A stretch of 64,000 nucleotides of DNA. Origin: Norana najaformis (Eukaryota; Annelida; Clitellata; Crassiclitellata; Hormogastridae). Under the pieces are notes generated by a model. That model was not told the origin of the DNA. It saw only the letters and a program-made list of their open reading frames with translations, and ran no database searches. How positions within the stretch are numbered: the stretch's first letter is position 1; every line of letters begins with the position of its first letter. Both the position numbers and the translations under genes were made by a program. The stretch spans positions 2,283,738 to 2,347,737 of the forward strand of contig OZ029923.1 of the NCBI GenBank assembly GCA_964023275.1. The letters run 5' to 3'. Of this stretch, positions 2,185 through 55,214 are shown piece by piece.

Positions 2185-2298
2185 CTAAGATTTGGACTTT
2201 TTCTTGGGCTTGACTTTCTGTCTTACTTCAAGTGATTCGTATTCATTCGTATCTCTGTCATTTCCCAAACTTGCGTAGGCTGACTCCTGCTTGTCCTC
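2185..2298 (-). CDS. Gene A exon 7: ITAM-like cytoplasmic tail
   Basis: 114 nt from TTTTAG|GAG to TAG. It encodes 37 residues holding ESAYASLGNDRDTNEYESL, then a basic end (KVKPKKKSKS). Spacing between the two YxxL units is eight residues, and an acidic residue lies three before the first Tyr, as in canonical ITAMs. Confidence 0.8.
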   Translation of the reverse strand, partial: EDKQESAYASLGNDRDTNEYESLEVRQKVKPKKKSKS

Positions 2299-5200
2299 CT
2301 AAAATAAAACCATTATCAATATGGTATAGCTCGAGATTGATATGCACGAATTAGTAAAGTTGACAGCAGTCTGATATTTTCTGGATTCTAAAGTTCTGCA
2401 TTGCTGTCAGATGATATGTGTTAATGTGTGCTTTGCTCCGAGTTAAAACGCTTATCTACTACTGGGAACCTGTAAAATTCAAAACCAATTCCGATTCATC
2501 TGTGAGCAGCAACAAGAATGAGATGGTAAACAAATAATTGTAGTCACATGAGTGCAATAGTCCAGTTACAACATAAAATGTAAACAAGTTTATCAGATGG
2601 TAATGAAAGACACTAGATCTAACAATTGGCATAAAAATTACATACAAGGCTGTTTTCATCAGGTCCTATACCCAGAAAATATATGACGTAGTATATCGTT
2701 TAGGCTCACACTGACATTGCCGGTCATAAACCTGTAACCATGATTTGCTTCTATAATAAAGTCCTTGGAAAGAAGAACACGATATACCCAATTATGCTGC
2801 ATCTTCTCTCGATCTATATACATAAAAATGTTAGCAAGAAGACAAGTTTGAACGATTTCAAAATCAGAAATAAGGATCATAGACTCAGAGGCGGGAATTT
2901 TTGCTATTTCCGGGCTGAATCTAGCGAGCCAGCCGGGTTTCGACAGCTTAACTACTGCCTGCAGTGTCGATGTTGTTGTACCAGACACAGTATGATTTGG
3001 CCACGTCTGCTTCGATCCAGCAAAAGGTGAATTAATGACTTACTGATGTAGTTTTTTTGCTAGGAATGGACGGAAGTTGATGGGGCGAAGGGCTTTTCTT
3101 CTGCTTCGTAGGTTGCGCAACATCAGCTACAAAGCAAGAATATATAGCTGCAATATTTACAGCATATTGGAATACAACTTCCGGTTCCGGCGGCCATGAT
3201 GTGGCCTTGTTTTACGCCACCTTTCATTTTGGCTTAAATTTGGTCTAAAAGCGACACATGTTGGACAATTCTGTCATGTTCGGACTCTTCTATTGTGATC
3301 GAGTTGGCGTTCCGGTGTCATTTACATGAATTCACCGTGGATTTTCGGTTTCGGACGGTTTTTTCGCGCTCGTGATTGACGTCTCTATCGTTGGAACAGT
3401 TCATTATGTATTCAAGGGATGTCAGGTTCAGACTCTCTCGATCATGGCTCATGCCGTCGAAAGACGATGGAAGGCTTCGGAATTGTTGCATGCGTCTTTC
3501 AGAAAGTGGTTCTACCATCAACGGATTACCTGTCCTACACGGATGGACCTGGTGGTTCAAGTTATGCCCGGATGCTGCGTCCTCTACCACTGCGAAGGGC
3601 GGCATTGGGACGGTGGTGTACTGCGGACGCCATTGCCCGTCGTTGCTGCACGACTTTGACGCTGAACACGTTGTCATCTGTCAACTGGGGATGGAATCCT
3701 GTTGGTTAGGCTCAGCGTGTTTGCGAGAGTCAGCTACGGGTGACATTTCTGGTGACCTCAGCATTGCCCGCTAATCGACGAAATCTTTGCTGTTAATGAC
3801 ATCTAACATCACACGCAGGCGTATTTAAGCGCCTTTGAAGCTGTTTGTGTTTATGTTGTAACGCGTCCGTTGAGTAAGACATTGTTTTATTAAGGCGCGT
3901 AATAAATATAAGTTGTATTGTATTGTACATTTTAGGTATAAATTACATATGCAATTAATTGCGACATTGTACCTTGTGCTTGTGTAAGTGAGGGCGTTTT
4001 TGTACCTGTGGATGTCTCTGTCTTCGTCAACTGATTTCTTACCGCGAGGCTGATTATCTGGTCTCCGATGAAACTCTAGATATCCGAGTCTGACCAAGCT
4101 GGCATAGGATATGGATGCCAATAGGACGGCAGTGAGAAGTCCGATTGGGAAGCCGATTCCAATGCCATCTTCCATGTGAAATTTCGAGGAACAAGTCCAG
4201 GTCGAAGTTAATTTATCTGTGCATAACATGAAGCGTTTCTCAACACTTAAGTAACAAGTATGAAGAACAGACCTATATAAATATCTAAAGTAATGCACAA
4301 ACGATCACAGAGGAAATGAGTTTTACATATCATGTAAAATTCAAAAGTATTTTGACCTGTTCAGTGGAAAGCACGAGGCTTTGTAAAGCTTATCAGCTTT
4401 GAAACTGAACGATCCTTATAAATAAAAAGAGAGAGAAAATGTCAAAAAACGTGAAATGGAGTTTTGTCCAAATGAATGTAGATTTTAAAAGCACTGGACA
4501 TATTTGAAATATGCCTACATAGTATGAACTGAACATATTCACAAATGCACTGGCCTTTCTAGAATACATTCTAACATTGAAACTAACCCAACATCGTTTC
4601 TCTAGGTGACTTGATTTGGTTGGACACTGGCGAATAAACTAGTCTTTATAAAAGTACGTGTTTTTCTATAACGACCGTATGGCCTCGACCTGTCTAATTT
4701 TTCAATGAATTAATCGGTTGAGATCCTTCACCACCGCTGCCCGTTTGAATGGGCGGCACGCCCTTTAGGGTTCCCGTATACGAATGGTGCTATACCGAGA
4801 TGAGGATAATAATAGGTTTCGATAAGCCACGACCGGGACGCGAACCGATATCCTCACGTTTTAAGGCCTCTTGACGTACGCGTGTTGCCAACCAGGCCAA
4901 CAGCTTGTTTTGTTTAGCCTTGAGATTTATCTACTTAATAATGTATAGCACTTATTACGATCGCAGTCAGTAAATCTAAATATCAGGCGCGGATGAATGT
5001 TCCCTAATGATCAAGACCAAGTCAGGCAATGGCCATGGCAAAATAGTGAGTCTTGACATGTGATTTAAGTCAAAAAAATGCGGGTTGGTAAGTAAGGCAT
5101 GCCTTTTTGTGGTAGACGATTCCAAATATCAGTCACTGAGCAAGTGAAAGCTCTGGATCCACAGTTGTCTTGTGTCGTGGCTAAAGAAACGGCACAGTCC

Positions 5201-8200
5201 CTAGCAGAAGAACGCAGCGGTCTAGGAGAGCGATGTGAAGTTGCAAATACATGAAATTATGTATGAATGACGTTACAAATTTTCGCCATACTACATTATG
5301 ATACGTGACGTTGGGTGTCCTAAAAGGCGCTATTTAAATGTATAAACAAATGCACGTAGCCTTTTATTAAAGAACGACTTAGACTTTGCTCAGAATTATC
5401 TCAGCCAGCAAATGCATTGGACAATGTTAGACAATGTTGGTCAACAGTGTTCCAATGCTGGCTGTGATGGTAGCAGTTTTAGTAATTAACTAATTAGCAA
5501 GACATGCGACGCAAAGGATCAAGTTCAAGATTTTTATTTGCATTCAGGTATTAGAAAAAACAGAAAATATCTGAAATTAGGGAGGAGATTGGAACACCAA
5601 ATGCTGTAGACATTATAATACCTTTGTTCTTAATCTGGAACTCATGTGAAGTTGCATTGTAACTCTTGCTTCGCATGACATTTGTCACAGCACATCTGTA
5701 TCTCCTGGAAGTGACATTGCTCTCAGCAAATTGATTGCTGAACTGATTCTGAATATCCATCCAAGTACAATCACTTTCCAATTCCTGTACCTGCCATTTG
5801 AAACTTGGAGGAGGATGTCCCTTTGCCGTACATGTAATTGTGGTTCCAGGAGAAAAATCAGAAAGTGTTAATGAAACAGTAACATTCCTAACTGGATCTG
5901 AAACATAATTTTAGAAGAAAATGTTTTGTGAAGACATTGTTATGACTTCCTTAAAGTCGAATGAAAAGATAATATTTAGAAAGACCCATAAGGTGTACAA
6001 AGAGATGCATAATGTGTTTATTCTAAGTCAATTTCTTTCTCTTAGTCAAATATGTCTGCGTAATAAAGTATAGTTAACAGAGTTTTGCTGATAGTTGTTC
6101 ATCATATATAATTGCACATCTCTTTTGCTAAACATAAAAGTGGAGTGGGACAAGCGTAAACTTGTGTAGCTTATACGTAGCTTATTTTGTACCATGCTAC
6201 TGCTTGCTTTGTGAAGTGTTTTTATGCAATAAAGCTTAAAATTCACAATTGAATTCAAGGCAAAAGAACTATAAACACAGATCAACTTTTTCTTATGCAT
6301 ATGTGAACAGTGATGCAAATTATTTTGGACTGTTCAGATGTTTGTCAACGGCATTGGCTGGTAACCAATTTTTTGAAAACAAGTTACAAAAGGATATTCT
6401 CATTGGATGTTAGCATCATTCAAAAGAATACTTACAGAGGACTTTGATGGCAGGTGTTTCACAAGCAGTAGTTGGAATGTTTGTAGCCAAATCTCTAACG
6501 CCTGTTGCGTTAACGTCAAACGAAGTGACACAAGTGAATGATGGAACCTCAGGAGCTGAAGCAACAACAGAGTAAGACCGTCGTATGGTATTTCCATTTT
6601 CCACAGCAGCCGGAGCACCTTTCACGTCTTTCCACAGCATCGATGCATTGTGTGTCCCAGTGTACGTCATCTCACATGTCAACTGCACTCCATCCCCTTC
6701 CATTGTGTCATCCAGAGAGGCATTTATTGCACATCTGGGTTGAGCATCTACACAGAAACATTTGACTTAAAGCTCAGCGCCACAAACACAGCGTTAGAAA
6801 GACTAGCTTTATCGCCAGTGTTCAATCAAATCAAGTAAGCAAAAATAGAGCGATGCTAGGTCTGTTTCAATGCCAGGTCATAGTCTAGAAATTATATGTG
6901 CATTTATCAAGTGTCACTATCTAACGTCTAATCATCAATCTATGGCGCTTGTGATCAATTGTGATGAAAGCCTTGCTCAAGCTCCCGACCCAGTAGCCGT
7001 CTCAGTGGAGCCATCTCAGCGGAAGAGGCCCGACAGTCTTTGCTTTACAACTCGAACTTTCTATTCAGTCCATTACGGTGCCCCACGTAAGTCCAGTGCA
7101 TTTACGAATATAGCCAACTCATATAATTTTTTCTACAATTTTCCAATCATACTCCACTCCTGATCATACTCCACTTTACAATTTCATATTTCTTCTCCTT
7201 TCTGTGAATACTGAAGGGGTATTCACTGTCAAAGCTGGTAAACTCTGATAGCAGATGATTTTTTTTCTACTGGATCAGCAGGTTTTATCTGCGTTTTTTA
7301 TTGGAATTTTTCACAACGTGACACGATGAATCATTGTGTTGTTGACTTGTTTTTGATTGCTTATCCACCGTAACCTGGCTTCTGGTTTCTCTGACCTATC
7401 GGAATTGGACAAGGCTTCTTTATTTTTTTTATACTTTTTTATTGCAATTTCACTCGAAGTGACCATCGACTGATGCCTTGGGCATAATGATAATGATGCT
7501 ATGGATGTCATTAGATTACTAGATTAGATAGAGCTCGGCATTTAACACGGAGAGAACGGGTGTGAGACTTCTCCTCTGAGACGGTTATTATGTATGGACC
7601 TCTAGGAAGGACCATGAGGTGGTTACTATATATGTTCAGTACCTCGAGCAAGTCTTTTACTCACAATTGCTCAGCGCAAACGATTTATTGTTGATCATTA
7701 AACGGTTGCGCTTAATAAAAACATAAATAATAATTTTCCTGAGATAGCACTACGCTACATATCGGGCGAGCCGACAGTTCAAAACCCGGTCGATTGACAA
7801 CTTCGAAAGATCGTCGAGACCTTATAATCATCATAACGTTTTTGAATCAGTCCTTGTCCCACCAAAGAAATAGCCACAAATGTCGAAGAAGGCCGATAAT
7901 TAGAAAAGTTTGGAAAGAACCCTATAAAAGATGCTACAGTAGTGAGCATAACTTGCTTGGCATTGGTTACAGTAACTGATTAGTATGGCATTTACTTGAA
8001 TGGTTTATTACCTGAATAGCCGTATACACGGTAAGTTAGTTATCTGTTGAGCATTGTCACAGATTCTCTAAAGAAACATAGCATCAAGAAATCCATCTTT
8101 AAAAGTTATATACATATATAAATTATTCTCACTAAGAATCAAGTGAAACAAAATAACTTACTTAATATAATGAGATAAGCACTCCTTTCATCTGGGCGTC

Positions 8201-9315
8201 TATTACCCCAATAAAATGAAGAGGAAGACACAGCACTACAAGTGAAGAGTCCGGAATCTGACAGTTTGACGTCGTTAATAACTAAATCACAACCGGATGA
8301 ATTGTCGACGCTGTATCGATCTCCATAAGTGCTCAATATTCCTCGGCGATCACTGAAAACAGTCTCTGCGTTGGTTTGAGTGGACTTTTCCCAATCGACA
8401 TACTTACAGTTTCTAGATGGTGTTGAACATTTCAAGGTTACATTTGAGCCAACAATTCTCAGAGTGTTTTGAAGTCCTTCGAGTTGACTTTGCTGAGCAC
8501 CTAAAAGTCAAGTCACAGTATTGTAGTTAAGAGACCAATATCTGTAATAGAATTATGAAATAGCCATATGGGTAGGAGAAGCTCAGCATAATAGCATAGC
8601 TTAATATGTTCATTTGGGGTCTGGTATTCTACTGAGAAGCACGGTAACCGATTGGATAGGAGTTCGGATTGTAAGGTGGAGAGTATGGGTTCGAGTCTCC
8701 TCTTAAACGATTAAGCCTACTGTGTCGAGGCCTTGAATAATTCATTTGTTTATTTTTGCTCTGCGCCATCGATTGATGCCTAGTCGTTAGATAATGGCTC
8801 CAAATAAGCGCAGAAGTAATTAAACTAGACGTAAATGTTCCTATCACTGACAATTGGACGAAGCGCTCGGATTGAGCTGCGGAATTTCAAACTAGAATTC
8901 GGGTGGGTTTTCGTTTTCACTCAGTATATAAACAAGTCATTGATCTACTCTGCATTATTAATGTAGTTGCGCTATAGAATTAGCTCAGGTTAATTTAGAA
9001 TACATTACTGTAGCAATTAAGGTATTTTGCTTTGACCAGGAAATGTCAGGCTACCAGTCTTATTGTCGGAACTCAACCCAAGATCAAGAATGCCGTAAGA
9101 AAATGCGAAGCATCAGCACTTTGCTTTAACCACTTTACCAGATAGGCCTACCTATATTAACCGTAAACCTCGGATGTTTGAATTGAATTTCTCAAGCGCT
9201 CCCGCATACATAACGCTTGTCAATTGTTTACTTACTAATTTACGGTCTATGATAATGCGAATGCATTAATTTTACCTGTAACTGTGAGGATGGTCGCGAT
9301 TACGAGGAGCTCCAT
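2185..9315 (-). CDS. Gene A: three-Ig transmembrane receptor with ITAM-like tail
   Basis: Seven exons, read right to left: signal 9276-9315, V-type Ig 8162-8500, Ig2 6436-6747, Ig3 5622-5897, transmembrane 4043-4216, linker 3044-3126, ITAM exon 2185-2298. They join in frame without a stop (1338 nt, 445 aa) and every border has AG/GT. The product is a type I membrane protein: cleaved signal, three Ig domains outside, one glycine-rich membrane segment, and a tail of about 75 residues ending in a basic lysine-rich stretch. The tail holds ESAYASL, eight residues, then YESL, matching the ITAM rule (D/E)xxYxxL x6-8 YxxL; ITAM tyrosines in known receptors are phosphorylated by Src-family kinases and bound by Syk-type kinases. 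Role as a recognition receptor (allorecognition or immunity) is inference from architecture and clustering. AATAAA motifs on the minus strand at about 1571 and 1588 could end the mRNA. This is the most intact of the three ITAM genes with three Ig domains. Confidence 0.82.
3044..3126 (-). CDS. Gene A exon 6: cytoplasmic linker
   Basis: 83 nt; enters in phase 1 and leaves in phase 0 at TCA|GTAAGT. It encodes a Lys/Ser/Pro-rich linker (with PSPHQLPSIPS). Exons of exactly 83 nt with matching borders exist in genes B and C, so it is supported by conservation more than by its own composition. Confidence 0.72.
3165..3890. mobile_element. GC-richer insertion of unknown type in gene A intron
   Basis: Genes B and C lack this stretch at the same intron site (compare 13250-13290 and 28975-29010). 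It is clearly GC-richer than its surroundings and has overlapping open frames of 95-132 codons on both strands, none recognisable. The right end is followed by AATAAATATAAG. It could be a solo LTR or other element; no terminal repeats were confirmed. Confidence 0.45.
4043..4216 (-). CDS. Gene A exon 5: transmembrane segment
   Basis: 174 nt, phase 1-1. After a Ser/Thr-rich stalk comes a single membrane span, GIGIGFPIGLLTAVLLASIS, with glycines every second to fourth residue (glycine-zipper-like), then YASLVRLGYLEF and a basic stop-transfer patch. The same exon occurs in genes B and C. Confidence 0.82.
4740..4905 (-). repeat. tRNA-derived SINE-like sequence
   Basis: The minus strand reads gatatcggttcgcgtcccgg, a B-box-like motif, preceded by a tRNA-like head (ggttggcaacacgcgtacg). 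Lies in the transmembrane-Ig3 intron of gene A and is absent at that point in B and C. Confidence 0.45.
5402..5464. repeat. Small hairpin repeat with CAGCCAGCA arms
   Basis: Begins cagccagcaaatgcattgg and ends ttccaatgctggctg, so the arms are inverted repeats. Related sequences occur at the same intron place in B (14655-14720, 18660-18735) and C (30248-30325), usually with the right arm decayed. Confidence 0.5.
5622..5897 (-). CDS. Gene A exon 4: membrane-proximal Ig domain
   Basis: 276 nt, phase 1-1. It has TTITCTAKGHPPPSFKWQ and RRYRCAVTNV, an I-set/C2-like Ig pattern common in invertebrate adhesion receptors. An additional Cys lies in the C'-D region (SDCTW), also present in gene C but absent in gene B. 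Confidence 0.85.
6436..6747 (-). CDS. Gene A exon 3: second Ig domain
   Basis: 312 nt, phase 1-1. Core motifs are VQLTCEMTY, MLWKDVK and PSFTCVTSF, giving Cys-Trp-Cys of an Ig fold. Extra cysteines sit near both ends (PRCAIN and TACETP) and may pair with each other. The acceptor is GTGTAG and the donor T|GTAAGT. Confidence 0.85.
7385..7532 (+). repeat. SINE family 2 copy
   Basis: Contains gtgaccatcgactgatgcc, gcataatgataatg and ends gtcattagattactagatta. Family recognised from copies at 890-1108, 10690-10930, 23930-24064, 26205-26342 and 35755-36000; the tail is TTAGA repeats. Lies in the Ig1-Ig2 intron of gene A. Confidence 0.55.
7545..7725 (+). repeat. Degenerate SINE family 1 copy
   Basis: Shares ctcgagcaagtcttttactc and cacaattgctcagcg with the better copies, but the tRNA-like head is poorly preserved. 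Confidence 0.4.
8162..8500 (-). CDS. Gene A exon 2: V-type Ig domain
   Basis: 339 nt, phase 1 on both sides. It shows the V-set hallmarks: B-strand Cys (TLKC), Trp after the C strand (VDW), an Arg in DRYSV, and DSGLFTC at strand F. Two more cysteines (NC before VDW, and SSGC in strand E) are placed to form a second disulfide. The C-terminal part is longer than in the paralogues, with an extra segment containing FYWGNRR before the G strand. Confidence 0.85.
8632..8830 (+). repeat. SINE family 1 copy (tRNA-derived head)
   Basis: Has a B-box-like gggttcgagtctcc at about 8688 and the family body ctgcgccatcgattgatgcc followed by ttagataatggc and a g-c-rich end. Lies in the signal-Ig1 intron of gene A. 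Confidence 0.6.
9276..9315 (-). CDS. Gene A exon 1: signal peptide
   Basis: Starts at ATG and encodes MELLVIATILTVT plus the first base of a Gly codon, a short hydrophobic signal core. The donor is G|GTAAAA and the exon ends in phase 1. Genes B and C have near-identical exons (MELFVVAILLTVT, MELFVIAVLLTVT), which supports the start codon. Confidence 0.75.
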
Positions 9316-12302: not shown

Positions 12303-12416
12303 CTAAGGTTTGGAGTTTCTCTTCGGCTCGACTTTCTGTCTTATTTCAAGCGGTTCATATTCGTTCGTATCTCTGTCATTTCTCAAACTTGCGTATGCTG
12401 ACTCCTGCTGGCCATC
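12303..12416 (-). CDS. Gene B exon 10: ITAM-like cytoplasmic tail
   Basis: 114 nt to TAG. Holds ESAYASLRNDRDTNEYEPL and a basic end (KVEPKRNSKP). Both tyrosines, the +3 leucines, the eight-residue spacer and the acidic residue at -3 are kept despite nearby substitutions, which suggests constraint. Confidence 0.8.
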   Translation of the reverse strand, partial: DGQQESAYASLRNDRDTNEYEPLEIRQKVEPKRNSKP

Positions 12417-15400
12417 CTAAAATAAAACCACGAGCAATATTTTATAATTCGAGATTGATATGCAAGAATTAGTAAGTGTGACAGTCGTCTCATATTTTCC
12501 AGATTCAACAGTTCTGCATTACTGTCAGATGATATGTGTTACTGTATGCTTTGCTGCGATGTAAAACGCTTATCTACTATCGGGCTTCTTACTTCCTGTT
12601 TCAACTGTGAGCAACAGCAAGCATGTAATGGTAAATAAATAACTGTTGTCACATGACTGCAATAGTCCGTTTACAAGACCAATGTAAACAAGTTTATCAG
12701 ATGGTAACGAAAGAAACTAGATCTAACAGTTTGCATAAATATTACACATAAGGCTGTTTTTATCAGATCCTAAACCCAGAATTATATGTCATAGTATTAT
12801 CGTTTATGCTACCACTGACATCGGTGGATAAATACCAGTAGACAAGATGTGCTTCTATAATAAAGTTCTTAGAAAGCGGAACATAATATATTTAATCATG
12901 ATGCATCTTCTCTCGATCTACATGCATAAAAATGATAGCAAAAAGACAAGTTTGACCGATTTAAAAATCAGAAATAAGGATTATAGACTCAAAGGCGTGT
13001 TATTGCAATTTCCGGGCTAGATTTAGCGAGCTGTTGAGTTTCGACAGTTTAAGCACTTCCTGCCGTGTCGGTGTTGCTGCTCTAGACCCAATATCTTTGG
13101 CCCACAACAGCGTCTGCTGCGATCCAGCAAAAGATGAATGAATGACTTACTGATGCAGTTTCTTTGCTAGGAATGGACGAAAGTTGATGGGAAGAAGGAG
13201 TTTTCTCCTGTTTCTTAGGCTGCGCAACATCATCTGGAAAGTAACAATCTACAGCTGCAGTGCCTATAGCATATTTTAGGTGTAAATTACTGCCTAGCTT
13301 TACAGGATGCAGACAGTTAAAAGTGAAATTGTATATAGTGTTTGTTCAAATAAGTGTGATTCGGTGGCTCTGTATGTTTCTGTCTCTGTCGACGGATTTC
13401 TTACCATAACGCTGATTAGCTGGTATCTGATGCAACTCTAGGTATCCGAGTTTGACCAAGCTGGCATAGGCAATGGATGCCAATAGGATGGCAGCGAGAA
13501 GACCGATTCCAAAGCCGATTCCAATGCCTACTCCAATTTGATCTTCAGAGGAACTAGCAGAAGTGGAAGATAATTCGTCTGTGAATTGCATAACATGAAG
13601 TGTTTATGGTTTTCTCAACACATAAGTAACAAGTATGAAGAAAAAACCTTCACAAACTATGAGAAAGCTGGAATAGAATTCTGCAGCCATATATTACTCG
13701 AGAATGTATTAAACAGTTTAACCTATCATTGACGGCAAATATGAGATTTTTGTAAAGCTTATCAGCTTTGACACTGGATGACTTATAAACATAACGAAAG
13801 ATAAGTAATATGTAAATGTGAACTGGTGTATGATCCCAATTGAGTTAGATTTTAATAGCATTGGACATATTTACACTGCACAATATCAGCTAAATATATT
13901 CACGAATGCACGGCCTCACTGCATTACGACTGACATTGGAACTGACCCAACATCGCTTCGCTTCCTGAATTGATTTGGCTGAACATTGGCGAATATACTT
14001 TCTAACACAGGTTTTATGTTGCGCTGAGATTTATCTACTTAATTAATAATTTAAAACAATGCTTACCCTCGCAGAGTTAATCTGAAGCTTAGGCGCTGAT
14101 GACAGTTCGCAAGGGGTCAAGACCGAGTCAAGCATAGACCAAAGTAATAAAGTGAGTCTTGACAAGTGATTTAAATAGTAATCGTAATTCCTTATTTATA
14201 CAACACATTTTCAAGAAAGCTATTCAGACACACAGAAGACCACTTTCAAACAGAATGGTATTCAATCGCTGGCGAAGAGACAGAGATAGGGCTAGAAGCT
14301 CATGATGCAGGACAAGATAGCAAGTTGGCATGTATGGTCTTTTGTGGTAAACGATTCCAAATGCTTGGGACATAGCAACTGAAAACATTTCATCCACACT
14401 TGCTTTTTGCTGATGCTCTAGTAACAAATCGATTATCAGAAGAATACAACAGGCGAGTGATATAGAATTGCAATGTATGAAGATGTGTATGGTAATATAG
14501 AAAGATTGAAGCTGAGAGCATACATTTCACTTTGTTAAGGAACTTTGAGATGCCCTAAAAGGCGCTATCTAACTGTTTAGGCAAATGTATTATATCACAC
14601 AGCATTAAGCATTTTGTTCAAGCAGGACTGCGTCTTTGCCCAGTAATATCCCATCCAACACACACGTTGGTAAAATTGTTGGACAACGTCGATTCAATAA
14701 TGTCCAATGTGTGCGTGTTAACAGTCGTCATCGTAAAGTCGAGATTTCTATAGCTCCCAACGAAAGCTAAGTCGCGGAAACCAGCATTTTCACAAACGCT
14801 AAGTGAAGAACAAGATCGATAGGCAAGAAGGGTTCGGTGCCAGCCCAAGATCGAAAAGTCAAGCATAATACCAGCATTGTTAACTTGGAACTCAGAAGTT
14901 GCACTGCAACGCTTTCCTCTCACGACATTCAATGCCACACATCTATATCGCCTGGAAATGACACTGCTCACAGAAAATTCACTGCTGTTTTGATTAGGAA
15001 TATACGTCCATGTTCCTCCATTTTCCGATTCCAGTACCTGCCATTTGAAACTTGGAAGAGGATTTCCCTTTGCCGTACACGTAATGATGCTTCCAGGGGC
15101 ATAATAAGAACTTGATGGTGACAAAATGACATCTCTAACTGAATCTTAAACAGATGTACAAGACAATTTATAAAATGATATGAAGACTTCGTAATGACTA
15201 ACCTAAAGCTGGTTGAAAAGACGAGTTTTCAGGAAGACCCATAAGGAGGACATAGGGATGTATATTGTGTTGTTTCAACATATTTTTTGTCTCTTAGTCA
15301 AAATATTTGCATAGCTACAGTAAGTGTAGTAAATGTAGTTATTAGTTCATTTCTGATATTTGTTTATCATACAGAAACGCAGACCTGTGTTACTAAACAT

Positions 15401-27955: not shown

Positions 27956-28108
27956 TTATACAGTGTAAATATCAAGCGTGTTGGAACAATCTAAGGTTTG
28001 GATTTTTTCTTCGGCTTGACTTTCTTTCTGTCTTAGGTCAAGCGATTCGTATTCATTCGTGTCTCTGTCATTTCCCAAACTTGCATAAGCTGACTCCTGC
28101 AGCACATC
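27956..28108 (-). CDS. Gene C exon 7: ITAM-like tail with altered C-terminus
   Basis: 153 nt to TAA. ESAYASLGNDRDTNEYESL is identical to gene A. Just after it, at about 28021-28030, four extra bases (a ttct-type duplication) shift the frame, replacing the basic lysine-rich end of A and B by an acidic/neutral end (QAEEKIQTLD, ending DIYTV) that is 13 residues longer. Confidence 0.76.
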   Translation of the reverse strand, partial: DVLQESAYASLGNDRDTNEYESLDLRQKESQAEEKIQTLDCSNTLDIYTV

Positions 28109-39997: not shown

Positions 39998-40090
39998 CTG
40001 AACGTGTTAGCACATAAACGCCTGCGACAGCCAACAGGATTATTCCAACGGAAATGCCAGCTACGATGAACACTATAGAAGCAGTTCGAT
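39998..40090 (-). CDS. Gene D exon 5: transmembrane segment
   Basis: 93 nt between TTGCAG and G|GTAATA, phase 1-1. Encodes a single span, IVFIVAGISVGIILLAVAGV, followed by YVLTRS. No charged residue in the span. Confidence 0.7.
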
Positions 40091-43000: not shown

Positions 43001-43918
43001 AACAAAGTAAGCACAAATTCTGTATGAAATTCATAATAAATATTAAGTATTAGATAACCAAAAAAAAACAAATATATGTCTAGTAACTTACTCAGTACAA
43101 TAAGATAAGCATCCATTTCAAACGAATTTATGGACTCATAAACTCTGCAAGTGAAGCGACCTGCATCAGTCATTTGTACGTTCTTTATAGCTAAATAGCA
43201 ACCAGAGGAATTTTCAACACTGTATCGATTTCTATCGACGTTCAATATTTCTCCCTTATCACGTCCTCTGTAAACAGTAATTGGATTGGCATCAGGATCT
43301 GATTTCAGCCAATCGGCATTGCTACAACTTTTGGATTTAGATACACATGTCAAGGTGACTTGTGATCCAGCAATGGCGATTGTGTTCTGAGATCCTTCCA
43401 CTTCATTCTGCTGTGCAACTAAAAAAACCAATAGCAAAATTAATTAGAATCGTTAGAAGTTACACCAAATTTTGAAAAAGTATTATCACGTTCTAGAGAG
43501 TATTCACACTGGAATTTATCGCCTTTTCAATTATTTTCGTGATATTTGCCTCATGTTTATGACAGATGCTACTGGCACCTACTTTGCTCAAAAGGAAGAC
43601 GGCTCTGTTTTCGACTTCGCTTTTCTTTGAACGCGCTGGAACTCTTACAATTATGATTACGATTAGTAGAGTCCCGATTTCGCGGAGTTTTTACTGAGGA
43701 GTTTAAACATGTCTGCCCCATTACCTTTTCTCGTATTGCTATAATGGACTTTAACCTTGCCTTAGAATTGCCAGCTACTAGAGAATTCAAACAGGATACG
43801 ACCCCGGAATGCAGTTTGTGAAGGATCACCATTCGGTCTCTAATAAAACAAACAACAGATGAAGGTTCTTACCTGTTAGTCTGATGGCAAGAAGAAGGAC
43901 TAACGCAGAAAGCGTCAT
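39998..43918 (-). CDS. Gene D: three-Ig transmembrane receptor, second subfamily (3' end unresolved)
   Basis: Exons found: signal 43873-43918, V-type Ig 43092-43418, Ig2 42151-42456, Ig3 41306-41581, transmembrane 39998-40090; all phase 1. The Ig domains are homologous in order and type to A-C but form a distinct branch with gene E. The transmembrane exon is unrelated to that of A-C. It ends TCA G|GTAATA; if spliced, the next exon was not recognised in 38.7-40.0 kb, and if not spliced, a stop follows after three more residues. So the tail is either very short or lies in an exon I could not find. No ITAM exon like those of A-C is visible in this unit. Confidence 0.76.
41306..41581 (-). CDS. 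Gene D exon 4: Ig3 domain
   Basis: 276 nt, phase 1-1. Contains TIITCAAEGHPSPSFKWQ and KGYRCFATNVVRG. Nearly the same sequence as gene E's exon 4, indicating recent duplication. Confidence 0.85.
42151..42456 (-). CDS. Gene D exon 3: Ig2 domain
   Basis: 306 nt, phase 1-1. Contains VKLTCEVTYNGTVKASMIWK and PSFTCVTSFEV, with terminal cysteines PKCGIN and ATCKTP. Donor is T|GTGAGT. The intron upstream of it holds a CAC/CAA-rich minisatellite. Confidence 0.85.
42529..42840 (+). repeat. CAC/CAA minisatellite in gene D intron
   Basis: Several near-identical units of about 33-36 bases of the type caccactactatcaccagc followed by aacaccaccac. Translates to His/Gln/Thr-rich runs that are not expected to be coding. 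Confidence 0.7.
43092..43418 (-). CDS. Gene D exon 2: V-type Ig domain
   Basis: 327 nt, phase 1-1. Contains VTLTC, NADWLKS, NRYSV, SSGCYLAI and MTDAGRFTC. The same two extra cysteines as in A-C are kept (KSC before NADW; SSGC), so the second disulfide is older than the split between subfamilies. Confidence 0.86.
43873..43918 (-). CDS. Gene D exon 1: signal peptide
   Basis: 46 nt encoding MTLSALVLLLAIRLT, donor G|GTAAGA, phase 1. Confidence 0.72.
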
Positions 43919-45490: not shown

Positions 45491-46482
45491 GAATTGGGAA
45501 GACTGATCTAACGAGATACAAAGAAAATCACTTTAAGTTAAGCAAGAGACATTATTTGCCCCAATTATAATTCAGTGCAGAATTTCTTAACAGTCGGTTG
45601 TTATACTATTATGAATCATTCTTTAGAATCGCGCCTTTGAAGGGGACTCTTGATAGCTGTTAATTCTACACGTCTCTCGTAAGTGCAGATTCCGCACCGT
45701 GTGACGCAGCTGCATTAGAAGTTAACATAACTTGCTCATGCATTAACTACATTGTACAGAAATTCAAACTAAGTTGAATAATATTTAATATTATAGACGG
45801 CTGAATTACAGTGAATATAAGAGAATAACTGTTAATAGGAAACGGGGACGGATCTTATATAAGCTAATAGCTTTCATCGGCGTAAATGTTATACTGTTTC
45901 TATGAACTTGCAATATTTGCCATACAATCATCAGTGCAATGAATTCTTACGTTGTATTTACAATTGACTAAAAATTAATCAGATAGGACTAAAAACTCCA
46001 GTTGAGTTGCTAGTTATGCAGGCCGAAATCAGTAACGATTTGGGTGTGTTGGACTTTACTGATTAAATCCAGGAGAGAGCGAATCTGTTTTAATAAAGCA
46101 TCAACTCATCACTTTATGACAAACATACCCTAAGTAATATATTATTTACTGAAGTACAGTTCTTCCTTAGCGTCACCTATTCCACAAATTGTGTATAAGA
46201 GCTTCTTATTCATAATTTCAACTGGTTTACATTTAAGTGTAAGTCACAGTAAGGTTGGTGATGATTCCGATTGCGATTGTTGCAAATTTATAAGTCAGGC
46301 GTAGAGATGCCTGTCGCTTCTTCGATGTTCGATTTCCTCGTAAGCGGACTCTCCGTGCCAGGCCTAAAATAACACTAAGAACCATATAAATCCACTGACA
46401 TTCTGTTTACAATCTTTTATAATATTATCGCGCCACAATCGGCAACAGCGCAACGAATGCTTAGATAACAAGAGAACTTTAC

Positions 46483-46610
46483 CTAGGAAGTGTCTGTATG
46501 GCACAACCGGTATCCAGGACATCCTCGCACAAAAAGGCATATGACGATCAATATAAGAACAACGAGGCCACAAACGGCAACACTCACTGGTATTATTAGA
46601 GCAGCTTCAT
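46483..46610 (-). CDS. Gene E exon 5: transmembrane segment and stop
   Basis: 128 nt from TATAG| to TAG. Single span IIPVSVAVCGLVVLILIVIC, then LFVRGCPGYRLCHTDTS and stop. The stop abuts GTAAAG, so even if spliced the reading frame would end here. Confidence 0.7.
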
Positions 46611-49600
46611 CTATAACACCAACAAAAGCATAGAACATACTATAGCACGTACGAGAACAAAACTCGTAATGATTCTTTCAAATACAACTAGGAGCAAACA
46701 GCTTATCCCAACACATGGAGAACTAGAACTTGGTCTCGGCACAACCAAACGAGAAAATATATTTTGAAATGTAATACAGTGCAAAATATAGTGCATGAGA
46801 ATAACACTACCTTTTTTGTAAACCTTGAACGTATAAGAAGTTGCTCTGTAACTTATTCCTCTCACAACATTCGTTGCAACACATCTGTACCCTCTGGAAG
46901 TGGCATCGCTTACAGCAAATTGATTGCTAGTCTGATTCCCAATATCCATCCAAGTACCATTGTTTTCCATTTCCCGTTCCTGCCACTTGAAACTTGGTGA
47001 TGGATGTCCCTCTGCTGCGCAAGTAATGATGGTTCCAGACGAATAACTTGGAAGTGACGGTGACAAATTAACATCTGTCACTGGATCTAAAACATATTTT
47101 TAGAAAAAATGTCTTAAGACTTCGAAGTTCTAGGCATTTAAGTAAGTATGAAAGTATCCTTCACTTAATTCCATCTGACAAATGAATATGAAAGACAAAA
47201 TACTGTAAACCAGATACAATGATGTTGTAACTTTCTGCCTGGCTATACATATATATTTTGAGTGTACTAGTTGTTCAGTCGATATAAGTAGACACGTGAA
47301 TGTTAGTAGTTTTATGAAATAAGCAAAAGCTTCACAGCTCTATCTGAAGAGCAATGAAGTTGACGAATATGTTTATCGCTAGAGTAAAGAAAGTCTAAAT
47401 TCCCTAAAAATATGTTCATATGCAAGGCATATTATTTTTTTTGTATCGATATGGATATTTATAATTGGAACAATAACATGGCATTATTAAAAGTAGCATA
47501 CTAGCCTACTTACAAAAGATGTTAACGGCTGGTGTCTTACAAGTTGCTCTAGGAACGATCTGGACCTCGCTTGTAGCCACCGTAAGCTCAAATAAAGTGA
47601 CACAGGTGAATGATGGCATCTTAGGAGCTGAAGAAACAATAGAGTAAGATCGACTTATAGTGCTTCCATTTTCATTAGCAGCAGGAGCATCTTCCACCCC
47701 TTCCCAGATAATAGAGGCTTTGACTGTTCCATTGTATGTCACCTCACATGTCAGATGCACTCCATCTCCATCCATTATGTCATCCAAAGTCGCATTTATC
47801 CCACAGTTTGGTTCAGCCTCTACAAATATTATATCCGGATTATTAAACAGTAACTATTATACGTTCAATACTGCTATACCACCTCTAAAACCTTCGCCAC
47901 TTATATCAACAGGAACCACCATTTTCGTCACCAGGGTTGATTATAGCTATACTATTTATGCAAGGCTAACTATTTCTCGCATTAACCAACTTCAGTCTAT
48001 CTTAAACCCTGCCGCCGGTTTTTTTGAAGGTATGTCTAGGCTTGTGCATAAATCCTTCTTCATGCGAGGAGAATTGCGCTTGTTGCCAATGAATAAACGC
48101 ACTGAGTTTAAGATCTTAATGCTTATGCTTAACTGCCTTGTGGGCTGTGTTCCATCTTATCTCAGGGTGTCATGTGTCTCAGTCTCATCCATTCCTGGCC
48201 CCAGATCTCTTCCCTCTGCTGCACAGGGTGTTCTGGTTGTTACCCTGGCCCGAATTTCGACGGTGCATCATAGAAGCTTCGCTCTGGTTGGTCCACCTTC
48301 CTAGAATAGGTTGCCTAGCACCTCACGACATGAATTTCTTGGTCCTTCTTTACCTCTGATCCGTAAGTGTCTTGAAAACCAGTTTGTTCTTCGCTGGTTT
48401 TCTGCCGTTAGGACGAGAAAGCCTCGGACGAGTATCTCTTGCAGAGGCACTAGTATGAATCTGCGATTACAATTTCAGCTACAACACCACCAACACCACA
48501 AGCACCACCAGCAGTCTCTATCTTATGACCCTTGTCAGTTTAATGTGTTTGTGGAATGCAGAGTGAGCACGTAAGCTTACTCAAAAGCCACAAATGACAA
48601 ACAGATATTTAATATTTAAGACGATAGTTCAGTTTAATAGACTGAAGGAACAACTTTAGGGCATATCTGCATTCTCCATTAAATTTTTAAGCATTTGGTA
48701 TTCCGTATCCGTATTTGTCCATCCTCATTTCTGAAGGTCGGAGACCAGAGTCATCGATATCAGCCCTCTCTATGCCGTCCTGTCCCGTGTGCTCCCGATG
48801 CATTCCGCTTCTGAAAGTCCAATCCATTCTTTGATGTCGTCCATCCTTCTTCGCCTCGGTCTTCCCCTTGGTCTTGATCCCTCTACATATCCCTGTAGTA
48901 GGTAAGCAGAGAGTTTGTTTTCGCGGAGTATATAGGTGACCGAAATATCTCAACTTCCTGCCCTTCACTACCTCCAGCAGTCTTTTCGTTGGTCTCAGTT
49001 CTTCCAATATTGAGGCATTTGTTCTGTGTTCCCTCCAGCTGACCGGCAGTATCTTCCTATATGTTGTCATTTCAAAAGCTGATATTCTTTTTCATTTGGT
49101 ATTGCTATGTGGAAATAAAAAGAACAAACAGAAAAGGAAACAAAAAAAAAAAGGAAACAAAAAGAAAATACATGTCTTTCAACTTACTCAGTACAATAAG
49201 ATAAGCATCCATTTCAAACGAATTTATGGACTCATAAACTCTGCAAGTGAAGCGACCTGCATCAGTCAGTTCTACGTTCTTTATAGCTAAATAGCAACCA
49301 GAGGAATTTTCAACACTGTATCGATTTCTATCGACGTTCAATATTTCTCCACTGTCACGTCCTCTGTAAACAGTAATTGGATTGGCACCAGGATCTGATT
49401 TCAGCCAATCGGCATTGCTACAACTTTTGGATTTAGATACACATGTCAAATTGACTTGTGATCCAGCAATGCTTACTGTGCTCTGTAGTCCTTTCGAGTC
49501 ATTCCGTTGTGCGGCTAAACGACAACAGCAGAAATGTTTTTAATTATTTGCAGCTACCCAAAAATGTAAAATAAATGTTATCACTTTTTAGAGGAACTGG

Positions 49601-50512
49601 AAATGGAAAATAAGAAAAAAACACAAAATTCCTCTAAGTTTCGTTTCACTCTAGTCGTATTTCCACGGTTGTTCCAATGATAGCTACCGCTGCTCCATTG
49701 CTAACCCTTGCAGGGGGTTTGATACTCATATGTTTGTCTTAGTCTGCCAATATTTAACCGTTCCTTGTCAGTTTTAGCAGCATGTGTAGGCACTGGTCTG
49801 CCTCCTGGTTACTTCCTTCTGACTGCTACAGGGGCAGCTGCCATCTTCATTTTTCTTAAAACATTACATCCCGGGACCAATTTACAATGCTCATTGCACT
49901 GGGTTGCGGCGTTGTGCTGTAGATGAAACACTGGTAAGCACAGTGAAAGCTGGTGTGTACTCGAATACCAGGTCACCCAACTCAGCCCTCCGTTCATTCG
50001 TGATCGGTCAGTAAATACCAAGGCCTGCATAGAAGTTGAATAGGCTTTCTGTTGCTGGAGAGAAGTGGTCGTGATTGTGCTTCAAATCCTGGAATCGCAC
50101 ATCTGAGAAACTTCTATCGAGGGGTCTAAATATAAAAAGGTTATACCTTCTACTTTTTTACATTTTTAAGTATTAAACCCTAATCTTGTCAAAAACTGGA
50201 TTCAGACTTCAATCAGATCTCAGATTTGGATTTCAAATCCAGTGGTTAAAGGCTCACCACGTTACCATTACGCCAGAAACCGATCTAAACCCCCAGATTC
50301 TGACCTGGCACCGAAAATGACCCAACAGTCTGGGTCTTGCGGACTTGAATTGATATGGAGCCGGTATTTAAGCTGGTCTTCTCAATACAGCTTTTTTGTG
50401 GCGCTGATAAATTTCGCAGATTTACATTTTACATTTATCAAACACATGGAATGTAATAGTTTTTACCTGAAAGGTTAACGATTTGTACAAGGATTGCCAC
50501 GAAAAGCACCAT
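46483..50512 (-). CDS. Gene E: three-Ig transmembrane receptor with short tail
   Basis: Five exons: signal 50467-50512, V-type Ig 49188-49514, Ig2 47514-47819, Ig3 46811-47086, transmembrane/tail 46483-46610. They join in frame to a stop (1083 nt, 360 aa). The Ig domains pair closely with gene D. After the membrane span only about 15 residues remain (VRGCPGYRLCHTDTS) with no tyrosine-based signalling motif of the YxxL type. The stop codon TAG is directly followed by GTAAAG, a good donor site, as though a formerly longer gene had gained a stop at an exon end. Function as decoy, adhesion or adaptor-dependent receptor is open. The Ig1-Ig2 intron contains two retrotransposon fragments. Confidence 0.78.
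46811..47086 (-). CDS. Gene E exon 4: Ig3 domain
   Basis: 276 nt, phase 1-1. Contains TIITCAAEGHPSPSFKWQ and RGYRCVATNVVRG. Acceptor is TTTTAG where gene D has TTTCAG. Confidence 0.85.
47514..47819 (-). CDS. Gene E exon 3: Ig2 domain
   Basis: 306 nt, phase 1-1. Contains VHLTCEVTYNGTVKASIIWE and PSFTCVTLFEL; terminal cysteines PNCGIN and ATCKTP. Confidence 0.85.
47930..48410 (+). pseudogene. CR1-like retrotransposon, reverse transcriptase C-terminal fragment
   Basis: In the Ig1-Ig2 intron of gene E, on the opposite strand. The translation follows the end of CR1/Jockey-type ORF2: a VDYSYTIYARL-type start, MRGELRLLPMNKRTEFKIL, VPSYL, QGVLVVTLARISTVHHRSFA, then WNRLPS-like DNA in a shifted frame. 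No catalytic motif is present; 5'-truncated and broken. Confidence 0.6.
48687..49070 (-). pseudogene. Non-LTR retrotransposon ORF2 C-terminal fragment (RTE-like)
   Basis: 127 open codons. ILEELRPTKRLLEVVKGRKL and RYFGHL, then a Lys-rich part and RMDWTF match the region after the reverse transcriptase domain of RTE/CR1-related elements. No start or upstream domain, so it is a 5'-truncated copy. Confidence 0.6.
49188..49514 (-). CDS. Gene E exon 2: V-type Ig domain
   Basis: 327 nt, phase 1-1. Contains VNLTC, NADWLKS, NRYSV, SSGCYLAI and LTDAGRFTC. Differs from gene D's domain at only a few residues in the central part. Confidence 0.86.
50200..50440 (+). repeat. SINE-like sequence in gene E first intron
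   Basis: Contains gattctgacctggcaccgaa and gtcttgcggacttgaattg followed by tggcgctgataaatttc. Related copies at 26910-27050 and 38400-38530. Confidence 0.45.
50467..50512 (-). CDS. Gene E exon 1: signal peptide
   Basis: 46 nt encoding MVLFVAILVQIVNLS, donor G|GTAAAA, phase 1. Same length as gene D's exon. Confidence 0.7.
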
Positions 50513-52160: not shown

Positions 52161-52164
52161 TTTA

Positions 52165-52590: not shown

Positions 52591-52593
52591 GCA

Positions 52594-52766
52594 TTTATTA
52601 AGGGCCACTATTTAATCATGACTAAGTATCACCCGAAGACGCTGAGCAATTGTGAATGCAGGACTTGCTCAAGATCCCTAGACAGTAACCGGCTCAGGAG
52701 GAGTTCGAACCTGTACTCTCCGCATTACAAGCAGAACATTCTAGCCTATCGGCAACCGTGCCACAT
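52594..52766 (-). repeat. SINE family 1 copy
   Basis: Minus-strand copy: gcatttattaagggccacta, gacgctgagcaattgtgaat, then gagttcgaacctgtactc (B box). Confidence 0.6.
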
Positions 52767-52963: not shown

Positions 52964-53118
52964 TTATTCTTCGAGAAAAATGCTCCTAAGACATCCAAAG
53001 AAGTACTCCAAGACGATTAGAACCACGATCAGTACGAAAGAACCAACAGATCCAACAGAAATTTTTATAGTTTTTATCCGAGCCTCCACCTTGTATTCGT
53101 CATCTTCATCTTCATCGT
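52964..53118 (-). CDS. Gene F exon 3: acidic stalk, transmembrane segment, stop
   Basis: 155 nt from TTCTAG| to TAA. DDEDEDDEYKVEARIKTIK is followed by the span ISVGSVGSFVLIVVLIVLEY and FFGCLRSIFLEE. The Glu near the inner edge of the span is unusual. Assignment to F rests on phase 1 entry and position. Confidence 0.62.
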
Positions 53119-55214
53119 CTAGAAGACAGAAAACAGTTTAACTGTCTAGAACTAACTGACGGAATGAAACAGGAAAAAGCTAAAGAGATCTTGTCTTTAT
53201 TTATCTGAGTAGACATGTCAGCATGACGGGCCAACGACAGGGAAACTCTAATGGTACCCAGTGCTAGTTCGAAGTTAACCGTAATCTTAAACCATGCTCA
53301 TGTTTCAACATTAATAATTACCCCGTGAATGTCAAGCGAGGTAGTTTGAACGGCTTACTCTGTTAACGTTATTAATAGAATGATTTGGTGGGCGAGATAT
53401 GAAAGTCACCATCTGGTCTCAGTTCAAAAAGAGCAAGTTTTCATATTTCGGGCATGTGCTACAAAAGAGTGGAGGTTGGCGAAAGAAAGAGATCATCCAA
53501 GGTACAATTCCTGGATTCCGAGCTCGGGGAAGAGCCAGGATGACACGAATAGAGAACATCAAGTCGTGGACTGAATATCGTTCGACCGGTCATTACAAGA
53601 GACAAAGGACAGAAGCAGATGGTGCAAAATTGTCCTAAGTACAGCTAGTCCTCGGTTCGAGGACGGATGAATACAAGACAAGACAAATCTGACACTATAT
53701 AATTATTGAAGAAAACATACAGTCTGTACTGGTGAAAGCCTATGATTTATTTTATATGTGCCCTTCAAACTTTCATTAATATCGAAAATGGTCAGATACA
53801 TAAACATGGCGACTCAGTTTTCCCAAAAAGATTTTTTGCTACATTAGTTGCTCGATTCTGTGCAGGCAGAACTTAATACAGTGAACTGGCTGGTTTTGAG
53901 GAAGCTGTTCCACTGGGTGTGAGAAGGACCGACTTATAGTTCCTCTCGTTTGCTAGTGAGACGGAATGCGTTCCACTTGGGTTACGTTGATGGCATTTTT
54001 GCCGGATCGTTGCGGGTTGTTTGGTAAGTCCCTCGTATGTTAGGGTGCAGTTATAGGGAACCTCGCTGACATTGTCTTTATGTTCTCAAGCTTGTATACC
54101 TAGAAGTCTGCTTGTCGGGCTAGTATATGAAAACGCAGGTGAGGATCTCTTTTATTTTCGTCATTATCATCATCATCAACAACAACAACATCATCATCAT
54201 CAACATCATTATTACAGTGCGAGAGCTCAACCACAGCAACAGCAATAGCAATACTTCAGCATTGTCTCTGAATTCAACGCTGCATCCTGCTAATTGTTGC
54301 TCATACCAAAAGTACCAAAGTATCAAAAATTAATAGGGCTCCTATTAGGATCTCTTAAAGTTCGACAATCACGATGACGATGTTAATTATAATGATAATG
54401 ATAATGATGGCGACGACTTAGTTGCCTAATCAAATTTTTAAAGGCACTTTCCATGTTTGACTTCAAAGAACAAGAACTTGCCTTGAACATTTAGGTATAC
54501 ACTAGAAGATGCGACTTTGACATCTTTGCAGTGGAAGAGTCCAGCATCCGTCATTTCTACTTTCTTAATGACCAGATCGCACCCAGAAGAAGAATCTACG
54601 CTGTATCGCTGTCGATAAGCTTCAAGAATTCCCGTGTCATTCTGGTAGATTGAGATATTTGTAGGCCCTTCAGATTTCAGCCACTCGATGTCGAGACAAC
54701 CTTTCACCTCCGACGGACATTTCAACGTTACAGATCCAGCTTCAGATGCTATTGCTTTTTCCGGTCCACTGTCCTGTCCTTGAATACCTGATGGATAAAG
54801 GATAAAGCACACCAACCGTTTGAGAAATTACCTCACTTATGATTAGATTAAACCTCTATCGGTTGATGCTTCATGAATATTTGATTTAAGATGACCTTGT
54901 CACCATCCATCAAAACCTAGCCACTTTATAGAGTCACTTTATAAATATAGGAAATTATTTAAAAGAATATTTAAATAGAAAATAGTTACAGATGAGGCAA
55001 GTTAATGTGTCTCACAATCTTTCAAATCAGAGCACTGGATCCTCTTGCTCTAGGTTAAGAAAAGTAAATTACAATATTTTGTTACGTGCTATGAGCATAG
55101 TTCAAAAACTAAACAAGTTACAAAAAAGACAGTTAAATTTTTGGTTGGCAAATTAACAATACCTGTAGTTAGAAAGACGGTGAGTAAGCTTAAAATGATC
55201 ACGATAACAATCAT
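52964..55214 (-). CDS. Gene F: single V-type Ig membrane protein with acidic stalk
   Basis: Three exons: signal 55163-55214, V-type Ig 54482-54787, stalk/transmembrane/stop 52964-53118. They join in frame (513 nt, 170 aa). The Ig exon ends AAG|GCAAGT, a GC donor with otherwise perfect consensus. The third exon begins DDEDEDDEYKVEAR, an acidic stalk, then a span rich in Val/Ile and a tail of a few residues. Between the Ig and third exons, 53880-54085 holds what looks like a decayed Ig2 exon, so F probably derives from a multi-Ig receptor. A start 63 bases further up (55277) is also in frame, but the sister exon of G has TTG there, so the inner ATG is preferred. A TATA box lies at 55320-55326. 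Confidence 0.72.
53380..53690 (+). pseudogene. Non-LTR retrotransposon 3' fragment (RTE-like)
   Basis: Plus-strand open frame with FSYFGHVLQKSGG, IIQGTIPGFRARGRARMT and ENIKSWTEY, the C-terminal tail typical of RTE-type ORF2, followed by ggacggatgaatacaagac as 3' UTR. Lies in gene F's intron, opposite strand. Confidence 0.65.
53880..54090 (-). pseudogene. Decayed Ig2-type exon in gene F intron
   Basis: On the minus strand, EVPYNCTLTYEG corresponds to LTCEVTYNG of Ig2, and the stretch ends near TTCACTG where Ig2 exons read TTCACTTG (SFTC). The frame breaks between the two halves and a stop follows. No splice borders were recognised. Recognition is by position-by-position likeness to the Ig2 exons, so it is tentative. 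Confidence 0.4.
54482..54787 (-). CDS. Gene F exon 2: V-type Ig domain
   Basis: 306 nt, phase 1-1. Contains VTLKC, IEWLKSEG, QRYSV, SSGCDLVI and MTDAGLFHC. The extra cysteines (KGC, SSGC) are kept. Donor is GC, not GT. Confidence 0.82.
55163..55214 (-). CDS. Gene F exon 1: signal peptide
   Basis: 52 nt encoding MIVIVIILSLLTVFLTT and a split Gly codon, donor G|GTATTG, phase 1. Its sequence and upstream 250 bp are copied at 58428-58730. Confidence 0.7.

Follow-up and report, generated by a model that had tools for sequence, protein, structure and literature searches.

The ITAM is an activating motif used by vertebrate immune receptors, and the activating NITR and KIR mostly borrow an ITAM adaptor. 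Among invertebrates, snail FREPs carry a fibrinogen domain, arthropod Dscam depends on exclusive exon choice in one gene, and the V-set domains of Alr, in the work of Huene et al. 2022, are reportedly without canonical motifs. Part of one paper (PMC12065747) describes the FcoR of Botryllus schlosseri as a V domain with a sushi domain and two C2 Ig domains, bearing an ITIM or hemITAM and paired with the fester genes. The oyster receptor CgIgIT2, according to a section of a second paper (PMC11999971), has five Ig domains, a TM and an ITAM, and binds Vibrio and LPS. An annelid V-set/ITAM family was not found among the matches listed from openly licensed papers, the nearest being a single table line, ‘novel immunoglobulin V-set proteins’, from the transcriptome of the oligochaete Olavius (PMC5117596), and the words immunoglobulin, immune, V-set and ITAM are absent from the main text of the first Eisenia genome paper (PMC7253469). 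An array of V-set/ITAM genes in a worm of this kind would tie the receptor question to named genes, to motifs and to an interval on a chromosome.

The window analysed here, a stretch of 64,000 nucleotides, carries six receptor genes arranged head to tail, all on the minus strand, between positions 2185, the stop of gene 1, and 55214, the ATG of gene 6. Each opens with a signal exon (ATG at 55214, 50512, 43918, 34305, 23113 and 9315) followed by a V exon, as the original prediction had held; the common exon order and phases that it also claimed were confirmed at every exon of genes 1, 2, 4, 5 and 6, and gene 3 was verified through its splice sites and exon lengths. These genes are part of a larger array at C11:2.13-2.37 Mb, of which the window represents about a quarter, in a genome of 608 Mb and 17 contigs. 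An automatic reading of the array recovered 12 complete units in order, each having separate signal, TM and tail exons, and left 7 of 19 tails outside such units. The Ig exons of the six genes are in phase 1-1, and units with one, two, three or six Ig exons occur; given this phase, the array can acquire or shed copies and Ig exons with the frame intact. In our interpretation, to which we attach a probability of roughly three in four, the complex belongs to an earthworm-like annelid and its germline-encoded products are activating receptors of the immune type, signalling by way of their own ITAM. Two sequence markers in the genome, a Lox5 homeodomain containing KLTGP and an erythrocruorin linker exon with 77% identity to Lumbricus L2, suggest an annelid near Lumbricus. 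A mollusc origin (FREP/GRC-like) was rejected after a search for the haemocyanin domain PF14830 produced 0 matches, which is weak evidence. A tunicate origin, as for Botryllus fuhc, was set aside on account of these annelid markers and of chromosome number, Botryllus having 16 chromosomes (PMC12448946) and the present genome 17 contigs. A tRNA search with ARAGORN returned none, and an Rfam scan returned one marginal tRNA match.

All features described below lie on the minus strand. Gene 1 (2185..9315) encodes 445 aa comprising three Ig domains, a TM and an ITAM. Its exons (signal 9315-9276; V 8500-8162; D2 6747-6436; D3 5897-5622; TM 4216-4043; CY1 3126-3044; tail 2298-2185) splice in frame with phases 0-1, 1-1, 1-1, 1-1, 1-1, 1-0 and 0, the internal sites are all AG/GT, and the ITAM tail exon (2185..2298) translates as EDKQESAYASLGNDRDTNEYESLEVRQKVKPKKKSKS followed by the stop. 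Gene 2 (12303..23113; 748 aa) has two V-D2-D3 modules, a TM and an ITAM, encoded in a single open frame by 10 exons: signal 23113-23074, V 21722-21402, D2 20004-19687 and D3 19177-18902, then V 17879-17559, D2 16126-15800, D3 15144-14872, TM 13578-13405, CY1 13233-13151 and tail 12416-12303. One signal exon and one TM and tail serve both modules; a signal, TM or tail exon was sought between the modules and none was detected, and choice between the two modules is possible. Gene 3 (27956..34305) follows the same plan, with signal 34305-34266, D2 31640-31323, D3 30783-30502, TM 29290-29117 and CY1 28946-28864; its V exon (33051-32732, length 320) contains a one-base frameshift and its ITAM tail (28108-27956) has an altered C-terminus.

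Gene 4 (37477..43918; 406 aa) joins three Ig domains to a different TM and a type-2 ITAM-like tail (YVEV-x8-YTPL) through exons at 43918-43873 (signal), 43418-43092 (V), 42456-42151 (D2), 41581-41306 (D3), 40090-39998 (TM), 39413-39370 (CY) and 37605-37477 (tail). Gene 5 (46483..50512; 360 aa) has three Ig domains, a third type of TM and a short tail (signal 50512-50467; V 49514-49188; D2 47819-47514; D3 47086-46811; TM 46610-46483, with the stop at its end), and a putative alternative tail exon at 46295..46363, with an AG acceptor and a short open frame up to a stop, carries one ITIM-like motif (SAYEEI). Gene 6 (52964..55214; 170 aa) consists of a single V domain, a TM and a short tail (signal 55214-55163; V 54787-54482; TM 53118-52964), with a Glu within the predicted TM stretch. 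The unit at 54 kb had been taken for a relic; it reads instead as this complete single-V transmembrane gene, the V exon having a GC donor. Two leftovers were found in the window: an orphan type-2 tail exon (25988..26113; YVEV-x8-YTTL), to which no TM or Ig exon was found to belong, and a solitary signal exon of the type seen in gene 6 (58428..58479; MIATVIVISLLVAFPTA, then a GT donor), with no V exon found after it within the window.

The cytoplasmic (ITAM) exon had been overlooked in the original prediction. Across 264 kb, YxxL-x6/8-YxxL/V is present in 17 of 17 type-1 tails, and YxxL/I-x6-12-YxxL/I in 16, the 17th ending in V; a strict ITAM, acidic -3 position included, is found in 14, and the other three deviate at one position. 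Two further tails lie outside the 17, one with both tyrosines and one broken, and a genome search located the 19 occurrences of the type-1 tail only in this array. The tail is also the most constrained exon, with a dN/dS of 0.30 versus 0.68 for V. Since the conserved type-1 tails are ITAMs, an immune-type receptor is likelier than an adhesion protein. Counting against our reading are the frameshifted gene 3, genes 5 and 6, which are without an ITAM in the reading used, and gene 4, whose tail is ITAM-like only.

All three V exons submitted matched the V-set family PF07686 at 34.3-40.7 bits, above the Pfam cut-off of 26, which excludes chance. Canonical C...W...DxGxFxC motifs are present in the V exons, and both Ig cysteines and W36 are invariant in six of six aligned window V exons, the frameshifted gene 3 being omitted. 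When modelled, the V exon gave an antibody-like V-set domain whose structural matches were antibody V domains, CD244 and NITR10; three of five models of V were poor, with a pLDDT of 43-49, as was that of D2 (52.6), which was too poor to use. A profile search of PDB with D2 gave four matches, the best being part of CD276 (E 3.2e-4), and a Pfam scan of four window sequences and P0001 returned only Ig families. Spliced-looking relatives were found in public data; P0001 and P0002 could alternatively be intronless gene copies. Within V, pN/pS was 1.05 in CDR-like loops, the limits of which were drawn by hand, versus 0.52 in the framework, a loop value that is no proof of positive selection; mean V dN/dS is below 1. 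Loop variation is common to most Ig families. Among window paralogues dN/dS was 0.35-0.93 for V, 0.42-0.91 for D3, 0.38-0.59 for D2 except for a single pair at 1.33, and 0.96-1.22 for the short TM piece. The ratio of mean dN to dS was below 1 in every domain. That the tandem genes form a family of surface receptors that diversify, as the original prediction held, is supported by the V fold matches, a loop pN/pS twice that of the framework and the ITAM tails.

Under the preferred reading, each product would be a single-pass surface protein with a signal peptide, an antibody-like V-set tip, usually two more Ig domains as a stalk and one TM helix, and the cytoplasmic tail of type-1 genes would end in one ITAM. 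Among neighbouring copies the V loops would diversify while the ITAM exon is held constant, and distinct V domains may engage distinct ligands on a microbial or foreign-cell surface. Clustering driven by ligand would lead a Src-type kinase to phosphorylate both tyrosines, on which a Syk-type tandem-SH2 kinase would dock, and the coelomocyte would be activated. The basis of this reading is the observed anatomy, the V fold as modelled, ITAM conservation, loop-centred variation, the many copies and the differences in Ig-exon number; the cell type involved, the ligand and kinase, the outcome and the transcription of the genes in this species are inferred. SH2 domain matches numbered 131, from 150 scored of 207 candidates; the two SH2 pairs examined presumably resemble the PI3K regulatory subunit, and none was named as Syk.

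As to function, the receptors may serve coelomocytes in pathogen recognition, after the manner of oyster CgIgIT2, to which we would give a little under even odds. A tandem, diversifying array is generally a common form of arms-race loci, the parts list of CgIgIT2, as that section gives it, is similar to that of the array receptors (PMC11999971), and the Olavius table line counts V-set proteins of an oligochaete among pattern-recognition proteins (PMC5117596); however, about 20 near copies are unneeded for a broad pattern receptor. A role in graft recognition is likewise possible, and we hold more tentatively that this is a self/non-self (graft or kin) locus, whose receptors would respond to the polymorphic markers that other worms carry and so bring about the graft rejection, with its short-term memory, described for earthworms. 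In being clustered V/ITAM receptors they are similar to Botryllus FcoR, a resident of an allorecognition locus (PMC12065747), and the mixture of ITAM, ITAM-like, ITIM-like and short tails is compatible with paired activating and inhibitory receptors, although the data, from one haplotype, do not link this locus to grafting. Somewhat more doubtful still is the proposal that transplantation immunity in earthworms has its molecular basis in the C11 complex, which would be an annelid receptor locus of histocompatibility type, its antibody-like V domains wired straight to built-in ITAMs and genes 5 and 6, short-tailed and ITIM-like, acting as partners or brakes; if true, together with the genome's other V-set clusters, this would be a germline repertoire sized like the innate Ig receptor complexes of vertebrates, in a protostome.

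A non-immune family serving adhesion or neural wiring, with tyrosines in its tail, is unlikely. Tandem arrangement is possible for Ig adhesion families, and the best matches of the gene 1 ectodomain in a PDB sequence search were neuronal growth regulator 1, axonin-1 and contactin-5 (E 1.4e-5 to 6.8e-5), but such matches are weak and, judged by sequence, generic for Ig domains, whereas a canonical ITAM is maintained by purifying selection, variation is focused on the loops and the V-set fold of the tip, as modelled, lies near antibody and immune-receptor V domains. That the array is mostly decaying duplicates, a young expanded pseudogene array with few working genes, is highly improbable in spite of the gene 3 V frameshift, the orphan tail, the lone signal exon, the broken pieces of V, D2 and D3 in other parts of the array and the seven tails outside complete units, since 12 units are complete and in order and the ratio of mean dN to dS is below 1 in every domain, with 0.30 in the tail.

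An array of activating immune-type receptors would mean that clustered V-domain receptors with an activating motif of their own are not confined to vertebrates, tunicates and cnidarians but also arose, or were retained, in protostomes. Like FREPs and Dscam, these would be diversified Ig recognition proteins of an invertebrate; the C-terminal fibrinogen domain of the FREP type was absent from the Pfam scan of four window sequences and P0001, and, unlike the mutually exclusive exon arrays of Dscam, a separate signal, TM and tail exon belongs to each of the 12 units. The original prediction named the Hydractinia Alr complex as a gene cluster of this form; kinship with it is unsupported, the genome having annelid markers and the V domains canonical motifs. 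Alr resembles the array in grouping IgSF receptors in one complex, in its V-set domains and in the ITAM or ITIM of some tails (PMC11999971, PMC12065747), but it is cnidarian, and the array V exons pass the Pfam V-set cut-off and nearly all type-1 tails have an ITAM. CgIgIT2 is similarly a lophotrochozoan Ig receptor with a TM and its own ITAM, yet in the section cited (PMC11999971) it has five Ig domains and is described as one gene, not as a V-set array. Closest in kind to the array receptors are Botryllus FcoR and vertebrate NITR/KIR. In contrast to fish NITR and mammalian KIR/LILR, the array receptor holds the ITAM itself, and no orthology is claimed. With FcoR, as partly described (PMC12065747), the array shares clustered type I receptors at many loci, a V-type tip, more extracellular domains, one TM and tail tyrosine motifs; no Pfam match to a sushi domain was obtained in one D2, four window sequences or P0001, and, unlike FcoR, the array genes combine V, Ig-like and Ig domains with a full two-tyrosine ITAM, in an annelid.

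The Norana najaformis genome comprises 608 Mb in 17 chromosome-size contigs, and the window lies at C11:2283738-2347737. The original prediction placed six receptor genes on a single strand, each beginning with a signal exon and a V-type Ig exon; all six could be built on the minus strand of the window, at 9315-2185 (gene 1), 23113-12303 (gene 2), 34305-27956 (gene 3), 43918-37477 (gene 4), 50512-46483 (gene 5) and 55214-52964 (gene 6). In every gene the signal exon ends in phase 1 and is followed by the V exon, which is of phase 1-1 except in gene 3, where a one-base frameshift has cost the V exon its frame. A second and third Ig-like exon (D2, D3) and a transmembrane (TM) exon follow in genes 1-5, and genes 1-4 have additional cytoplasmic exons beyond the TM. 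All internal junctions are AG/GT, save one GC donor in gene 6. In the reading adopted, gene 5 has a stop inside its TM exon. Gene 6, the unit near 54 kb, makes a small gene that reads as complete: signal, V, TM and stop. Gene 2 forms a single open frame (signal-V-D2-D3-V-D2-D3-TM-CY1-tail, CY1 being the cytoplasmic exon before the tail), and the stretch separating its two modules showed no further signal, TM or tail exon; because the Ig exons of this gene are of phase 1-1, a splicing choice between modules and one joined protein are equally possible.

Several repeats accompany these genes. An inverted repeat of 170 bases (38807-38976 and 45296-45465; 84% complementary, 6.3 kb apart) flanks most of gene 4, and long simple repeats occupy 51190-51330 and 52260-52600, with a minus-strand run of Asp-type codons and an 18-base tandem repeat. 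A dispersed repeat of approximately 80-100 bases, SINE-like by appearance, occurs in both orientations (14725-14813, 16699-16781, 18177-18279, 31756-31847, 58181-58270 and 61925-62027), and a plus-strand reading-frame fragment at 56890-57060 resembles reverse transcriptase by eye.

The earlier gene description reported no cytoplasmic exon; we find one, carrying an activation motif in the type-1 genes. The common form of the type-1 tail, DGQQESAYASLGNDRDTNEYESL, is a canonical immunoreceptor tyrosine-based activation motif (ITAM). Within 264 kb that include the window, 17 type-1 tails were found; all 17 hold both tyrosines as YxxL-x6/8-Yxx(L/V), with a final L in 16, and 14 satisfy a strict form (acidic residue at -3 and final L/I). 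Strict matches across that stretch number 21, of which seven fall elsewhere than in tails; ten first-order simulations gave 2-6. An alignment of 16 tails shows each of the two tyrosines to be invariant, and since TAC and TAT codons are both used at each, it is the residue itself that is kept. A whole-genome search returned 19 matches to this tail, all within C11:2132348-2364320; of the two beyond the 264-kb stretch, one keeps both tyrosines and the other is broken. The TM of gene 4 is of another kind, and its tail carries YVEV-x8-YTPL; this tail has an orphan copy at 25988-26113 (minus strand) and a third copy outside the window. Gene 5 stops shortly past its TM, and 120 bases further there is a possible short exon whose single motif, SAYEEI, is ITIM-like. 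In gene 6 the tail is short, and the predicted TM stretch contains a Glu.

The array was surveyed into both flanks (C11:2123738-2283737 and C11:2347738-2407737). Automatic reading of the minus strand gave 12 complete signal-V-D2-D3-TM-CY1-tail units, which keep strict order and are spaced about 10 kb apart; both strands were searched, and the plus strand of the surveyed stretch yielded no strong type-1 exon; beyond 2381 kb it bears pieces of V and D2 that belong to other types. To the right of the window the array gives way to different V types, which occupy both strands and are broken in several cases. No D3 was seen in the unit at 2192-2198 kb, whose D2 carries a stop, and neither D2 nor D3 in that at 2132-2136 kb; with these and the six-Ig gene 2, units have one, two, three or six Ig exons. 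To the left lies an open frame at 2124334 for a glycine/methionine-rich protein, which we take to resemble an RNA-binding protein of hnRNP or PTB type. A genome-wide D2 search, with 150 of 170 candidates scored, matched strongly and over the full length at 21 places (E 1e-31 or better), one of which contains a stop, and also gave a single truncated copy; all of these lie on C11, the farthest at 2483641. Three weak matches rank below them, one of them on C2. The V-set profile PF07686 gave at least 150 matches from 910 candidates, many clustered on C2, C4, C11, C12 and C16; in four of eight such loci fetched, a weak match to the D2 profile (10-12 bits) lies close to the V exon.

Relatives were sought in a set of 5.8 billion predicted proteins: single-sequence searches found one (P0001; 51% identity over 52% of gene 1) and an alignment search six. 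In P0001 and P0002 V and D2 are joined at the junction of the gene family with no intron between, and in P0001 D2 runs on into a type-1-like TM, skipping D3. From their sequences these two look like spliced transcripts, intronless gene copies being a possible alternative. In P0003-P0005 V continues into intron-like sequence in the style of genomic fragments, and the Ig protein P0006 is a remote relative, at 23% identity. No annelid V-set/ITAM family was found in the part of the openly licensed literature covered.

The genome also carries annelid markers. PF16915, the annelid erythrocruorin linker, has 29 matches (best 8.1e-32), one linker exon sharing 50 of 65 residues with linker L2 of 2gtl/5m3l, presumably Lumbricus terrestris structures; many weak matches at C5:34389541-36879561, mostly at 36.7-36.9 Mb, look like an expanded array. 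Abstracts give 18 chromosomes for Lumbricus rubellus and L. terrestris, so that the present genome, in 17 contigs, probably belongs to a different species. A Lox5-type homeodomain with a KLTGP tail is present, and Hox-like homeodomain exons are spread over C1, C3, C4, C6 and C7, some as similar pairs; in earthworms and a leech, Hox genes are described as extensively rearranged (PMC11371463).

The array is likeliest an activating receptor family: anatomy, motif and motif constraint are observed, and ligand, cell type and kinase are putative. The variable V tips would bind ligands, and the constant, built-in ITAM would recruit a tandem-SH2 kinase. That the receptors read microbes has somewhat less than an even chance; that their ligand is allogeneic, serving graft or kin recognition, seems rather unlikely. 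Both readings overlap with that of an activating receptor family. Earthworms are described as rejecting grafts with a short-term memory (PMC2248247).

By analogy, the receptors may work similarly to the vertebrate NITR and KIR families. Most activating KIR and NITR borrow their ITAM, whereas here it is built in. Hydractinia Alr proteins are reported to have non-canonical V motifs, in contrast to the canonical ones of the array, and Pfam scans of one D2, four window sequences and P0001 revealed no sushi domain. Because no sushi was seen, the V motifs are canonical and the ITAM is their own, we do not file the array receptors under FcoR, CgIgIT2 or NITR/KIR. In their manner of working they may nonetheless be like Botryllus FcoR (PMC12065747) and oyster CgIgIT2 (PMC11999971).
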